Below are positions 14,942 to 44,239 of a DNA stretch of 64,000 nt, piece after piece (the stretch's first letter is position 1; the number at the start of each line of letters is the position of its first letter). The position numbers were made by a program, and so were the translations under genes. Under the pieces are notes generated by a model that was not told where the DNA came from, searched no databases, and saw only the letters and a list, made by a program, of their open reading frames with translations. Source of the stretch: Oscillospiraceae bacterium (GTDB taxonomy: Bacteria; Bacillota; Clostridia; Oscillospirales; Oscillospiraceae); NCBI GenBank assembly GCA_021201735.1, contig JAJQEJ010000034.1:1-64000 (forward strand), given 5' to 3'.

Positions 14942-14950
14942 GAAAAAAAT

Positions 14951-15122
14951 GCAAGATAGAGGTTGCGGTTTTCATCAGTAGCGCCGGGAGGGGTTCGGTA
15001 CCCCGAGGAACAGCTGTGAAAGGGAATGCCGCCGAAGGGAGCTTTCAGCCGAAAGTCTGTCTCCCTGGGCAAGTGGTTAACAGCCGCTTGACTGTCGCCG
15101 GTTTTGGTGGAGTGCTGTCTGC
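14951..15122 (+). promoter_or_regulatory. Lysine riboswitch (L box)
   Basis: The aptamer carries the conserved L-box pieces in order: GATAGAGGTTGCG, TCAGTAG, GGAATGCCGCCGAAGG, CTGGGCAAGTGG and CTTGACTGTCGCC. The P1 helix pairs 14951-14959 with 15115-15122, with one bulged A. A terminator hairpin follows at 15182-15220, ahead of asd. Lysine binding should favour the terminator and shut off asd-dapA-dapB. The identification follows from the known L-box consensus; no folding program was run. Confidence 0.95.
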
Positions 15123-15181
15123 TTTTGTTATATGGTGTGCAGCGGCAAGCTTGTCTTTGCCGTCTCTGACATTATAGTACA

Positions 15182-37662: not shown

Positions 37663-37671
37663 GGGATATTG

Positions 37672-38769
37672 ATGGAGCAAATAGAATATGATATCGCAAT
37701 TATCGGCTTAGGCCCTGCCGGGGCGGTTTTGGCAAAGCATCTGGATCAAAATCTGAAGGTCGTCGCGCTGGATAAAAAGTCCAGCGGGAACGGTGGCTTC
37801 ACCAAGCCCTGCGGGGGTATGCTCGCCCCGGACGCGCAGGAATCCTTCTCCCGCTTTAATATGACGCTGCCAAAGGACATTCTGGTGGATCCACAGATTT
37901 TCAGTGTAAAGACCATTGATCTGGAAAACAACCTGACCCGGCACTATCAGCGACACTACATCAATATGGATCGCGACAAATTCGACCGCTGGCTGATCAG
38001 CATGATCCCGCCAAACATCGCAGTGATGCAGGATGTTTCCTGCACCAGTGTCACGCGGCAGGAGCACGGATTTGCAATCACCTATCTGAAGAACGGCAAA
38101 AAAACCGTCATGACCTCCAAATACGTCGTAGGCGCCGACGGAGCAAATTCCATTGTCCGCCGCAGCCTGTATCCGGATTTCAAGATCAATACCTTTCTGG
38201 CAATACAGCAATGGTTTCAGGATGAACATCCATCTCCTTTTTATTCCTGTATCTTTTCCCCGGAAATTACCAATTCCTATGGGTGGGGGCTGACAAAGGA
38301 TAACCACTTCATCTTTGGTGGTGCCTTTGACGTCAAAACAGGCAAGCAGGATTTTGAGTCCCTGAAGCAAAAGCTCAAGCCCTACGGTTTCCGACTCGAG
38401 CATCCGGTCAAAACGGAAGCGTGCCTGGTTCTATGCCCCTTTGGCCCGAGAAACCATTGTTACGGCACCCATGGCGCGTTTTTGATCGGTGAGGCAGCAG
38501 GCTTCATTAGCCCCAGCTCATTAGAGGGCATCAGCTACGCCATTGACAGCGCATATATGCTCTCCCAATGCCTCAATCATGCCCAAGAAGATCCCAATAT
38601 GGCATACCGATATAAAACACGCAAAATACGCATGAAGCTTTTTTTAAAGTACGCGAAGCACCCATTTATGTATCAACCATTTTTACGCAAGTTGGTGATG
38701 AAAAGCGGTGTCGCCAGTATTAACATGGTCGCTACAGAAGGAAATAACGCATCAAATGGTAATCATTAA
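37672..38769 (+). CDS. FAD-dependent oxidoreductase, geranylgeranyl-reductase family
   Basis: Flavoprotein of 365 residues. The N-terminal FAD-binding motif is IAIIGLGPAGAVLAKHL and KKSSGNGGFTKPCGGML follows. The second FAD contact is VVGADGANSIVRRSLYP, and the C-terminal IGEAAGFISPSSLEGI holds the GD-like motif. This layout fits the group containing geranylgeranyl reductases and FixC-like or halogenase-like enzymes. The substrate is not evident; an isoprenoid or lipid double bond is one possibility. GAGGG overlaps the stop of the preceding gene and precedes the ATG at 37672. Confidence 0.85.
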   Translation: MEQIEYDIAIIGLGPAGAVLAKHLDQNLKVVALDKKSSGNGGFTKPCGGMLAPDAQESFSRFNMTLPKDILVDPQIFSVKTIDLENNLTRHYQRHYINMDRDKFDRWLISMIPPNIAVMQDVSCTSVTRQEHGFAITYLKNGKKTVMTSKYVVGADGANSIVRRSLYPDFKINTFLAIQQWFQDEHPSPFYSCIFSPEITNSYGWGLTKDNHFIFGGAFDVKTGKQDFESLKQKLKPYGFRLEHPVKTEACLVLCPFGPRNHCYGTHGAFLIGEAAGFISPSSLEGISYAIDSAYMLSQCLNHAQEDPNMAYRYKTRKIRMKLFLKYAKHPFMYQPFLRKLVMKSGVASINMVATEGNNASNGNH

Positions 38770-39599: not shown

Positions 39600-39793
39600 C
39601 TCTCCAATTGAATGAGTCAATTGGAGAGTCGGTGCCTGTGGCACCGCGCCGCTATGCGGCACGTCTCATAAACTCCGTACGCGCTCCGCGCTATCAATCG
39701 CTATGCAGCGATTGATACGGAGACTAGTATAAGCAAAACAGGGCCGACACGTCGGAATCCGCAGGATTCCATATGCGTCGGCCCTGTTGCTAT
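39600..39793. repeat. Row of consecutive hairpins between convergent operons
   Basis: Five stem-loops follow each other. The first pairs 39600-39611 with 39617-39628 (12 perfect pairs). The second is GGTGCC-TGT-GGCACC (39631-39645). The third is GCCGC-TAT-GCGGC just after it. The fourth is a branched element closed by CTCCGT/ACGGAG, containing the ten-pair stem ATCAATCGCT/AGCGATTGAT. The fifth is a long stem with AACAGGGCCGAC/GTCGGCCCTGTT and inner GGAATCC/GGATTCC, ending near 39793. On the minus strand the last stem is followed by TTTT and can terminate the decarboxylase operon. The density exceeds what two terminators need. Confidence 0.8.
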
Positions 39794-39807: not shown

Positions 39808-40176
39808 TTATTCCGGCACAAGCTGCTTACATATCTTTTCCAGAAGCTCCTCCACCAAGGAGAGAATGAGGGCAATATTGTCTCCGGATAGATTGTCGTA
39901 ATGCACGCCGCAGACAACGACCACCTTTTTCCCAAAGCGTGCGGACAGGGCCTCGGCAATCTGGTTGCCGACAAAGTGATCCTTATGACTGGGAAAACAA
40001 AAGGTGGAGACTGTGGCACTCGTGTCGGCCGCGTCGGCCAGACTGGGGCGCGGGGTTGCCATGCTGACGCTCCCAATATGGGCCGCTCCGCCGGTTACCA
40101 GCACAAGGAGATCAGAACCCATCCAAGTCGCTTCAGCGCGGATAGTAAAACCCTCCCGTTCCGCCTGACAGTCCAT
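39808..40176 (-). CDS. LpdD-like protein of the UbiD decarboxylase locus
   Basis: Soluble protein of 122 residues resembling the LpdD family (small subunit of gallate decarboxylase loci, described as a prenyl-flavin chaperone). It has VLVTGGAAHIGSVSMATPR near residue 30 and KVVVVCGVHYDNLSGDNI, followed by a C-terminal helix. The name rests on these motifs and on its place directly after the UbiD-type gene. The start is ATG at 40176, eight bases after GAGG. It is last in the transporter-ubiX-idi-ubiD operon. Confidence 0.78.
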   Translation of the reverse strand: MDCQAEREGFTIRAEATWMGSDLLVLVTGGAAHIGSVSMATPRPSLADAADTSATVSTFCFPSHKDHFVGNQIAEALSARFGKKVVVVCGVHYDNLSGDNIALILSLVEELLEKICKQLVPE

Positions 40177-40214
40177 AAGCAACACCTCATTTTCTTTGGA
40201 GTATTGGAATGTAG

Positions 40215-40256
40215 GGGGCCGCCCGCGTGCTGTGTCCGTGCAACGCGGGCGGCCCC
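40215..40256 (-). promoter_or_regulatory. Intercistronic hairpin between the ubiD-type and lpdD-like genes
   Basis: A 14-pair perfect GC stem (40215-40228 with 40243-40256) and a 14-base loop. No T-run follows in the transcribed direction, so a processing or stability element, or a leaky terminator, is more likely than a full stop. Confidence 0.6.
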
Positions 40257-40269
40257 TTCTAATTTTGAA

Positions 40270-41730
40270 TTAAAGATCGGGTACGTATTTCTTGTAATCA
40301 AGATCCAAGAACTTAGAGCGCTCAAACTTGCTCTTCATACCAAACGGCACCGTACAGTCGAAGATCGTCTTACAGGAGATGCCACGGTCGGCGATCAGCG
40401 GGCTATACTCCGGTGTTTCCGACGGATCAAGCGGGTGGCAGCGTACGCCGGGGATGAAAACCGTGTCAATATTCCCCTGGAATCTCGTGTTCATGGCCCA
40501 GATAACGTCGTTCATGTCAAACGGATCGACATCCTCGTCGACAAGGAAGACATGCTTGAGCTCCGGGAAGGCGCTGAACGCGAGCAACGCGGCCTGGCGC
40601 TGACGGCCCTCGTCGCTGGGAATGGATTTCTTAAACTGAAGAACCGCCATATACTTGCCGCCACCGGGTGAGGCCGCATAGACATTCAGCAGGCGGCCGG
40701 GCATCGCCTTTTCCACCATATTGAGGATGCTCGCCTCAGTTGGGATACCGGCCATGCTGACATGCTCCTCGCTGGGGCCGATGCACGTCTGGAGGATCGG
40801 ATTCTTGCGGTGTGTGACCGACTTAATCTTAATCATGGGGACGGACGCCGCGCCGCCGGTATAGCCTGGGAACTCAGGCATAGCCTTGCCGGTGTTGCTG
40901 TTCTTATCCTCCGCCGCGCGGAAGTTTGGAATCATCTCGCCCTCAATGACATACTCCGCGTTTGCGATACACTTGGAGTTGATGGTGAGGCAGTTTGTCA
41001 GCTCAACCGCCTTGCCGCGGATTGCGCCTGCAATGCTGAGCTCATTAAAGCCGAAGGGGGTCGTTGGCGGCTCAAAGCCTGCGGCAATATCAATGGCGGG
41101 GTCAACACCGATGCTCACGGAGATGGGCCAGGGCTTGTCGGCCTTTTCGGCCTTCTCAAACATCGCGCCCAGATGACGCGCGCCGGGGGTGATCCACATG
41201 GACATCTCATCCTCACTCTGCAGGCAGAGGCGGTGAATGGTGACGTCGGACTCGCCGGTCTCAGGATCCTCGCCATAGCAGACGCCCATGGTCACATAGG
41301 GGCCCGCATCCTCCGGGGTGTTGGTCGGAGCGGGAACAATTTTACGTACATCAAATCCGGGGTCGGTCGCCTTGTAGACCACTTCCTGACAAAGCGCCTT
41401 ATCGTTCGGGATTACCACCGGATCAATGGCCTTTGTTACACTGTCCTTCAGGAGGTAGCCCAGCTTTTCTGGCTCGGTCTCCAGCATCAGGGCGACGCGC
41501 TTACGGCTGGCCAGTGTGCCAATCAGAACCTTGGCATCGGGATGCCCGTTGACCTTGTTGAACATCAGCGCGGGGCCTTCCTTTGTCGGGCGCTTCACGG
41601 TGCCGCCGGCACCGACATAGCGATAGATACCGGAAATCTCAGCGTGACATTCCACAGGCTCATTACACTCGGCATATTGGCCGGGATTTGCTTTCATGAT
41701 TTCAATCGCGCGTCTCAGATCGTATTCCAT
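40270..41730 (-). CDS. UbiD-family prenyl-FMN-dependent decarboxylase (LpdC-like)
   Basis: Non-oxidative (de)carboxylase of 486 residues using prenylated FMN. The UbiD signature VDEDVDPFDMNDVIWAMNTR lies near residue 390. GPSEEHVSMAGIPTEA, the FGFNELSIAGAIRG region and the C-terminal DCTVPFGMKSKFERS are also typical. Length and partner genes match the LpdC (gallate) and hydroxybenzoate or protocatechuate decarboxylase branch, not the quinone-pathway UbiD. The true substrate is not deducible. The ATG at 41730 is used because AGGAGG lies seven bases before it. Co-encoded UbiX and LpdD-like proteins should supply and load the cofactor. Confidence 0.92.
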   Translation of the reverse strand: MEYDLRRAIEIMKANPGQYAECNEPVECHAEISGIYRYVGAGGTVKRPTKEGPALMFNKVNGHPDAKVLIGTLASRKRVALMLETEPEKLGYLLKDSVTKAIDPVVIPNDKALCQEVVYKATDPGFDVRKIVPAPTNTPEDAGPYVTMGVCYGEDPETGESDVTIHRLCLQSEDEMSMWITPGARHLGAMFEKAEKADKPWPISVSIGVDPAIDIAAGFEPPTTPFGFNELSIAGAIRGKAVELTNCLTINSKCIANAEYVIEGEMIPNFRAAEDKNSNTGKAMPEFPGYTGGAASVPMIKIKSVTHRKNPILQTCIGPSEEHVSMAGIPTEASILNMVEKAMPGRLLNVYAASPGGGKYMAVLQFKKSIPSDEGRQRQAALLAFSAFPELKHVFLVDEDVDPFDMNDVIWAMNTRFQGNIDTVFIPGVRCHPLDPSETPEYSPLIADRGISCKTIFDCTVPFGMKSKFERSKFLDLDYKKYVPDL

Positions 41731-41740
41731 AATAATCCTC

Positions 41741-42274
41741 CTAAATGATGCATTCATTTATTTTTGTAATTGTCTCTATGACTCGCGGGGCACATATCAG
41801 GAACCAGGGGGCGTATTGCTCCGGCTCGGTGCGCATATCATCCAGCAATATCGGAATGCTGACCCATTGCAGCACATCGACTTCCTCCGGGTTTGCCTTT
41901 ACGTCTCCATGGTACTCCCCCAGAAAAACATGGTCGTATTCATACTCGTACAGCCCGTGATCCAGCCGGGCAAAATAGGTAAACGTGTGGTGATGGGTAA
42001 GCGTCACAGGGGTGGCCCCCGTCTCCTCTCGAAGGCGGCGCGCAGCGCACTCTTCCAGCTTTTCGCCGGGGCGCGGATGCGAGCAGCAGGCGTTTGCCCA
42101 TAAGCCGCCGCAGTGATATTTATGTGCTGCCCGCCGCTGCACAAGCAGCCGATCTTCCTGATACAGAAAAACGGAGAATGCCCGATGCAGCTGCGGTGTG
42201 CTGTGTGCCTGCATCTTTGGCATGGTACCAAGCGGTCGATCCAGTAAATCCACCAGAATCACGTCCGGCTCCAT
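41741..42274 (-). CDS. idi: Isopentenyl-diphosphate delta-isomerase, type I
   Basis: Nudix-fold enzyme of 177 residues interconverting isopentenyl and dimethylallyl diphosphate. The catalytic cysteine lies in LWANACCSHPRPGE, the Nudix helix is GEKLEECAARRLREETG, and the catalytic glutamate lies in YEYEYDHVF. The ATG at 42274 directly follows the ubiX stop. Its position between ubiX and the decarboxylase suggests that it provides the dimethylallyl donor for UbiX, and not bulk isoprenoid supply. That role is inference from context. Confidence 0.93.
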   Translation of the reverse strand: MEPDVILVDLLDRPLGTMPKMQAHSTPQLHRAFSVFLYQEDRLLVQRRAAHKYHCGGLWANACCSHPRPGEKLEECAARRLREETGATPVTLTHHHTFTYFARLDHGLYEYEYDHVFLGEYHGDVKANPEEVDVLQWVSIPILLDDMRTEPEQYAPWFLICAPRVIETITKINECII

Positions 42275-42276
42275 TG

Positions 42277-42843
42277 CTATCCGTCGACCCCTTCCCACGG
42301 AGAAAATTCGCTGTATTGCATCCCCAGCTGCATCAGAATTTTCCCAATCACATGGTTGACCTGGTCGGTGGTTCGTTCAAGCTTATTGTAGAAGGTCAGC
42401 ACAGGCGGGATAATGGTGCAGCCCAGATCCGCCGCGTCCATCAGATTACGCAAATGGATTTTGCTAAACGGCATTTCCCGAGGCACAAGAATCACCCGTC
42501 TGTTTTCCTTCAGGCAGACATCCACCGCGCGCACCAGAAGATTTGCGCTGTATCCGGCGACAATGCCGGAGAGGGTTTTCATGCTGCACGGAATGACAAT
42601 CATCCCGTCCGTGTGAAAGGAACCGCTGGATATGCTTGCGGCCAAATTCGCATCACTATGGCAGACGTCGGCGAGCTCCACCAGTTTTTCAAAGGGAAGG
42701 TCTGTCTCCAAATCCCAGGTTTTCCGTGCACCGTCGGTAACCACCAAATGGATTTCACAGTCCTCACGCTGGCGCAGTGCCCGCATCAGCGCATATCCCA
42801 TCACAACGCCGCTTGCGCCGGAAATGCCTACAATGATTCGCAT
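42277..42843 (-). CDS. ubiX: Flavin prenyltransferase UbiX
   Basis: Transfers a dimethylallyl group to reduced FMN, making the prenyl-FMN cofactor of UbiD enzymes. The flavodoxin-like protein has 188 residues. It has an N-terminal VGISGASGVVMGYALM, the SSGSFHTDGMIVIPCSMKTL segment and RRVILVPREMPFS. It lies two bases before idi and 36 bases after the transporter in one operon. Confidence 0.95.
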   Translation of the reverse strand: MRIIVGISGASGVVMGYALMRALRQREDCEIHLVVTDGARKTWDLETDLPFEKLVELADVCHSDANLAASISSGSFHTDGMIVIPCSMKTLSGIVAGYSANLLVRAVDVCLKENRRVILVPREMPFSKIHLRNLMDAADLGCTIIPPVLTFYNKLERTTDQVNHVIGKILMQLGMQYSEFSPWEGVDG

Positions 42844-42879
42844 ACCTGACCTTCCCCCCCATTCACAATATCGTTTCTT

Positions 42880-44148
42880 TTAGTATAACCCAATGACTTT
42901 GAACCATCCCACTTCCACTAGACAGACGACAACAAAGACGGCTACAGTCAATGGAAGTCCCATTCTTAACGTCTCCTTGGTACTGTACCCACCATTGTCT
43001 TCTCCTGATCCGACCAAAATCGGCAGATTGTGGTGCGGGAAGAGATAGTGGGCGTAGATGGCTGTGTACGTCATAAAGGCCGGTATGAGCGGACTGATAT
43101 TCATCTCCGTCGCGTAGGAAACCATGAGTGGACAGACGAGGCCCATAACCGCGATACAACTGCCCAGAACCATATGGCAGACCACCGCAACCACAAAGAT
43201 AACGAGCGCAAGCACAAGTATACTCTGCGGCGTGGAGATCAACTGCTTAATCACATCATTGAACAGCCAATCTGTCATACCGCTTTCCGCGCCGACCTTA
43301 CTGATGGCAAGCGCGGCGGTCAGGAAGACCAGTGTGGGAACAGGCACTTCGCTCCAAGCCTTTGGGGTAATGACCTCGCCGACAATCGGGAGGCTCATAC
43401 AAACCGCGACAATCAGGGTAATCCAGCCGGGATCTATGCCATGCAGGCTATACGTCATCCACAGGACAATGGCGATAACCAGCCAGACAATGACACGGAT
43501 TTCCTTCTGCGACAGCTTGCCAAGGCTCTTGGATTTGAGCACAACCTCTTCCTTGTTGATGACAATTTTATTCTTCGGACGGAAGAGGAGGAAGATCAGC
43601 CCCATGGTCAGCAGGGTCATCACAACGGCGGGAACGCCCATGATTCCAAGCCAGCTAATCCAGCTGACCTGAACACCTGAAATGGATGAAACCAGCGGCG
43701 CGAAGGAGCCGTCACCTGTCAGAAAGATCATGGAGGTCGGGACGGCGGCGGCAAAGACGGTGAAGCCAATCTTGATCCGGTCGGATTTTTCCATCTTGGA
43801 CGCGTCCATGACGACCTTCATCACAGACATAATCAAAAATGCCTTGGGGAACGGGTGCGGAATAAAGAGGCTCATGATAACGTTGAGAATAAAGATAGAG
43901 AACACAATGCTCCGATAAGAATTCACGAACTTCCCGATAAATCCATACGCGATGCGTTCACCGAGGCCTGATGATGTTACTGCGTGTGCGATGATATACG
44001 CGCCCATGACCAGCCACATGGTGGAGTTGAGCCATGGAGAAAAGACGGTTGCCGGTTCCGCTACTTTGAAAATAATCAGCAGCATCAGGAACAATGCCGC
44101 TGTGAAGCCCGGCTGAACAATTTGCGTTGCCCAAAAGACGATGGTCAT
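42880..44148 (-). CDS. DASS/SLC13-type anion transporter, 5' end uncertain
   Basis: Membrane protein of at least 422 residues with about ten or more hydrophobic segments. It has the TGDGSFAPLVSSISG and LYAHYLFPHHNLPI-like regions seen in divalent-anion:sodium symporters. It probably imports the carboxylate substrate of the decarboxylase or exports product. The ATG at 44148 lacks a ribosome-binding site. Good family-like sequence continues in frame upstream (PGIAVFLFFYFIPIANLSH, then EGQTLLALLL) to a TGA at 44238-44236, with no ATG, GTG or TTG. An ATG at 44239 reads into this frame only after a one-base shift, so a frameshift or sequence error is possible. Confidence 0.8.
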   Translation of the reverse strand: MTIVFWATQIVQPGFTAALFLMLLIIFKVAEPATVFSPWLNSTMWLVMGAYIIAHAVTSSGLGERIAYGFIGKFVNSYRSIVFSIFILNVIMSLFIPHPFPKAFLIMSVMKVVMDASKMEKSDRIKIGFTVFAAAVPTSMIFLTGDGSFAPLVSSISGVQVSWISWLGIMGVPAVVMTLLTMGLIFLLFRPKNKIVINKEEVVLKSKSLGKLSQKEIRVIVWLVIAIVLWMTYSLHGIDPGWITLIVAVCMSLPIVGEVITPKAWSEVPVPTLVFLTAALAISKVGAESGMTDWLFNDVIKQLISTPQSILVLALVIFVVAVVCHMVLGSCIAVMGLVCPLMVSYATEMNISPLIPAFMTYTAIYAHYLFPHHNLPILVGSGEDNGGYSTKETLRMGLPLTVAVFVVVCLVEVGWFKVIGLY

Positions 44149-44239
44149 AAGTAGCAGCGCTAAAAGCGTTTGCCCCTCATGGGACAGGTTTGCAATCGGG
44201 ATAAAGTAGAAAAACAGAAAAACAGCGATACCAGGTCAT

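Follow-up and report, generated by a model that had tools for sequence, protein, structure and literature searches.

A type I IPP isomerase gene beside ubiX in a predicted phenolic-acid decarboxylation operon of an Oscillospiraceae bacterium

The window, by which we mean the whole 64,000-nucleotide stretch of DNA analyzed here, carries on its minus strand a run of five genes from 44148 to 39808. Read 5' to 3', they encode a DASS-like transporter (42880..44148), the flavin prenyltransferase UbiX (42277..42843), the type I IPP isomerase Idi (41741..42274), an AroY-like UbiD decarboxylase (40270..41730), and a putative LpdD-like prFMNH2 chaperone (39808..40176). Open reading frames and family matches bear out the gene set, order, place, and strand given in an earlier note on this DNA; that note also described gaps of 2-95 bases, and the genes are indeed closely spaced, with gaps of 36, 2, 10, and 93 nt along the operon once the starts are corrected. 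The ubiD gene probably starts at 41730 rather than 41757 because AGGAGG, a ribosome-binding site, lies immediately upstream, and lpdD probably starts at 40176. RNA folding of the 93-nt gap between ubiD and lpdD gives a strong, GC-rich hairpin without a T-run (40215..40256, minus strand; -42.8 kcal/mol), and sequence and fold point to a terminator-like hairpin followed by TTTT 3' of lpdD (39739..39786, minus strand). An intergenic repeat located after this terminator (39700-39732) recurs at several sites in the genome with 93-97% identity.

The locus adjoins a SipL gene and genes that look housekeeping-like. Downstream of the operon, next to an SDR gene, a plus-strand gene (37669-38769) encodes a geranylgeranyl-reductase-family FAD protein that scores well above the NF008519 cut-off, and it is kept at L036, a locus from the same genus as the window. 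We rejected a tie between this gene and the operon, as it is absent at the other listed linked loci except the same-genus one. Elsewhere in the window lies a lysine riboswitch aptamer (14949-15125, plus strand; RF00168, 89 bits).

The transporter is called DASS-like because it matches the broad family PF00939 (Na_sulph_symp; E 1e-38) and falls below the cut-off of the DASS symporter model TIGR00785 (125.7 versus 198.6 bits); the transporters of its relatives are 48-55% identical to it. The open reading frame from 44148 is short at the N-terminus: in-frame homology to the relatives reaches ~44235, no ATG, GTG, or TTG occurs in this frame between 44148 and a TGA at 44238, and the ATG at 44239 lies in a different frame. 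The contig of the same-genus genome ends at the transporter start. This may reflect a frameshift or a mistake in the assembly, or the start may be an unusual one. The missing start codon, together with the decay documented in the relative G013 (described below), would fit a window copy that is itself decaying, in an operon that is no longer a functional module here. We consider this very unlikely, since faulty assembly could account for the missing start and since dN/dS against L036 is 0.04-0.07 for ubiX, idi, and ubiD and 0.20 for lpdD.

The isomerase passes the equivalog cut-offs of TIGR02150 (114.5 versus 105.8 bits) and NF002995 (156.2 versus 127 bits), and His24, His30, Cys64, His66, Glu84, Tyr100, Glu110, Glu112, and Trp157 align with the E. 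coli IDI chain. We take these positions to include the catalytic Cys and Glu and the metal ligands. Judged by its sequence, the protein is firmly assigned as a type I IPP isomerase. UbiX likewise scores above its family cut-offs (TIGR00421, 204 versus 108.9 bits; PRK06029, 219.8 versus 188 bits), and its closest solved chain, at ~49% identity, is E. coli O157 UbiX (1SBZ), an enzyme that accepts both DMAPP and DMAP (PMC6541611). Common to both proteins is His164, a residue considered to make room for the beta-phosphate of DMAPP (PMC6541611); at this site, where we looked for His or Gln as opposed to Phe, the window UbiX has His. The residue is at most necessary for DMAPP use and is no proof of the donor, and it does not serve as a marker of idi-linked UbiX, as it is also present in unlinked ones. 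Because UbiX carries this DMAPP-compatible His, the product of Idi could be used directly, without a phosphatase. Some UbiX enzymes need DMAP (PMC6541611) and the window Idi matches the NUDIX fold family, which together raise the possibility of a hydrolase that makes DMAP from DMAPP for a DMAP-using UbiX and performs no isomerization. This seems highly improbable to us, given that the isomerase models are passed while the general Nudix-hydrolase models are below their cut-offs, that the protein matches E. coli IDI at the metal-binding and catalytic Cys/Glu positions, and that His164 of UbiX fits DMAPP.

The decarboxylase, in which three UbiD domains are matched, had been labeled ubiD/lpdC-type. 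The UbiD family stands, and the label can be refined to AroY-like: AroY (5NY5) is the closest solved structure, with 54.6% identity over the whole length, and the window protein keeps all five catechol-binding and acid residues (R188, E289, H327, K363, and H436) that AroY reportedly requires for activity (PMC5656893). The same study names Arg181 of AroY; index 181 is Ser in both the AroY structure and the window UbiD. A VdcC identity was rejected (NF041204, 450 bits versus a cut-off of 650). Because the enzyme is closest to AroY and keeps these residues, its substrate is probably a catechol-type acid, 3,4-dihydroxy- or trihydroxybenzoate (protocatechuate- or gallate-like). The last protein of the operon belongs to the LpdD-like family (PF21758, E 9e-35, 119 versus 27 bits). 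LpdD is a prFMNH2-binding protein that assists in activating UbiD enzymes, and in E. coli the basal prFMN level limits LpdC, a limit that LpdD relieves (PMC10865409).

Linkage of idi to ubiX occurs at 11 loci, which are spread over Oscillospiraceae, Lachnospiraceae, and Synergistaceae and represent fewer independent cases than loci (G479 and G961 share a genus, as do L036 and the window). The linkage for which the earlier note proposed a check is thus conserved in other genera and in another phylum. An idi-driven scan of species genomes found ubiX nearby in 5 of the 80 loci listed (at least 80 exist), and these five, among the matches listed, come from a same-genus MAG, a Lachnospiraceae MAG, two Lacrimispora, and a Synergistaceae MAG. 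Searches that start from UbiX carry no bias toward idi, and these turned up G013 and G479 in the class and G779, G856, and G961 in Lachnospiraceae. When a close-lineage UbiX (at least 55% identity to the window UbiX) is accompanied by DASS, idi lies within a few genes at 10/10 resolved loci, the window included; a Synergistota locus with DASS (L209), whose contig ends before the idi region, is outside this count. Without DASS, the close lineage has a linked idi at one of nine loci, namely G013. The DASS-UbiX subtype located by UbiX alone in Lachnospiraceae has idi in 4/4 genomes.

Across 397 Lachnospiraceae genomes, 16 hold type I idi, 14 a close UbiX, and 6 both, with the two genes no more than ~6 kb apart in 4 of the 6. 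Type I idi is present in 6/14 genomes with a close UbiX versus 10/383 others (Fisher p 4e-6, kinship ignored). A general co-occurrence of idi and UbiX was rejected: true UbiX is present in 5/31 genomes with an unlinked idi, and any type I idi in only 4/43 genomes with other UbiX types. The majority of UbiX lack a linked idi; the proposed idi-ubiX/ubiD module holds for close-lineage UbiX with DASS but not for ubiX/ubiD operons generally (0/43 linked). Our search, which covered the open-access literature, found no description of the idi-ubiX link.

Outside the window, the usual set comprises LysR, a PAD-type UbiD that matches 7AE4, DASS, UbiX, LpdD, and Idi. Two loci (L045 and L195) hold both a PAD-type and an AroY-type UbiD, and the window has the AroY-type alone, with idi directly after ubiX. 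The UbiX proteins of the linked loci form one supported lineage that also holds members lacking DASS and members lacking idi; a single clade of DASS-bearing UbiX was rejected (p-AU 0.0037). For the linked idi genes, a single clade is rejected (p-AU 5e-42), which points either to more than one recruitment of idi or to its replacement within the module; gene loss and transfer from the module to elsewhere may have shaped the idi phylogeny as well. The patchy spread fits the earlier description of the module as transferable, but no mobile element was seen. A search for plasmid copies found the close UbiX lineage absent from plasmids (best match 49.5%), and UbiD relatives occur there with up to 71% identity. 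A second module of G479 (L147:7645-10878) has no idi and encodes a UbiD (71% to that of the window), a DUF554-like membrane protein, UbiX, and LpdD. A further LysR-UbiD-UbiX cluster lies in the same-genus genome G618 (L177:777-4054; UbiD 54%, UbiX 49%), and no counterpart of its UbiX was found in G000.

Eight linked genomes each have a single real type I idi, the one in the operon, and none of them has a type II idi above cut-off; type I idi is also single in G779, G856, and G961. All eight encode IspH and thus the MEP pathway, as had been guessed from the window. IspH yields mostly IPP and some DMAPP, in a ratio of ~5:1 (PMC13001223); idi is therefore dispensable for growth on the MEP pathway, which makes a sole copy sitting in the operon informative.

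Idi might instead be a general balancer of IPP and DMAPP, in the operon by chance or carried along, so that cell isoprenoids benefit and UbiX gains nothing special. In G013 (L032:7811-10949), a deletion joins the UbiX N-terminus to the LpdD C-terminus and the UbiD N-terminus is fused to a DUF554-like remnant, while idi is intact. At L109:8250-9510, where synteny holds on either side, the ubiX-ubiD segment has been lost and idi is again intact, and thus idi and ubiX have not been lost together in either case. The two idi genes show a dN/dS of 0.066, a value in which divergence after the loss of UbiX and UbiD is not set apart, and MAG assembly error may lie behind this picture of decay. Most type I idi genes in Bacillota are also unlinked, among the matches listed. 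Against a general balancer, different idi lineages are repeatedly linked to one DASS-UbiX subtype, and type I idi is enriched with close UbiX among the 397 Lachnospiraceae genomes. We regard this alternative as rather unlikely, but the earlier claim of an isomerase dedicated to UbiX is too strong, given that G013 and L109 keep an intact idi in spite of having lost or fused ubiX, lpdD, and ubiD.

We therefore favor, with some reservation, a phenolic-acid decarboxylation operon in which Idi raises DMAPP for the UbiX of the same module. The DASS-type transporter would import a catechol-type hydroxybenzoate, and Idi would turn IPP, made in excess by IspH, into DMAPP, with which UbiX may prenylate FMNH2 directly. 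The LpdD-like protein would then hold prFMNH2 and help load the AroY-like UbiD, which would remove CO2 from the acid. An idi gene within the operon would lift DMAPP when much decarboxylase needs charging. The recurrence of idi with DASS-UbiX, its status as sole isomerase in MEP genomes, His164, the AroY residues, and the single UbiX lineage set against several idi lineages all argue for this reading. Weighing against it are the eight of nine close-lineage UbiX loci without DASS that have no linked idi, the intact idi that outlives UbiX and UbiD, the presence of His164 in unlinked UbiX, and a transporter possibly defective at its N-terminus. The demand for prFMN is also small relative to the isoprenoid demand of the cell. 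The core of the original proposal thus survives, in that idi most likely boosts DMAPP for prFMN in one module subtype, but strict dedication does not: Idi helps the module and need not serve UbiX alone.

The recurrent neighboring idi suggests that prenyl-donor supply can limit prFMN enzymes. We advance more tentatively, at somewhat less than even odds, the broader idea that fast-working phenolic-acid decarboxylase modules of anaerobes are held back in prFMN loading by the supply of DMAPP and not by UbiX alone, with an IPP isomerase repeatedly recruited as relief. If so, the cassette would span substrate import to cofactor precursor. The cellular source of the prenyl donor for prFMN, and the extent to which it limits UbiD enzymes, has been little studied, and the idi-bearing operon makes it possible to test genetically whether the precursor is limiting. 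Holo-UbiD enzymes are difficult to produce, and a natural operon with idi suggests idi co-expression as a simple addition for prFMN biocatalysis. The DASS-UbiX-LpdD-Idi set is also a marker of likely phenolic-acid decarboxylation in anaerobes.

The operon is a known UbiX/UbiD/LpdD system to which idi has been added, a variant and not a separate kind. The studies of AroY (5NY5, 5O3M, and 5O3N; PMC5656893) describe the enzyme and not an operon with idi, and the window UbiD is predicted to be of this type. In contrast, the UbiD of the Lacrimispora DASS-UbiX-LpdD-Idi set belongs to the phenolic acid decarboxylase group of 7AE4 (E 1e-253). The gallate decarboxylase system LpdB-LpdC-LpdD of Lactobacillus plantarum (PMC10865409) combines a UbiX, a hydroxybenzoate UbiD, and an LpdD-type chaperone, as does the window, and its LpdD (8P4W) is weakly similar to the window protein (E 6e-7). 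Compared with these three components, idi and the DASS-type transporter are the additions of the window operon.
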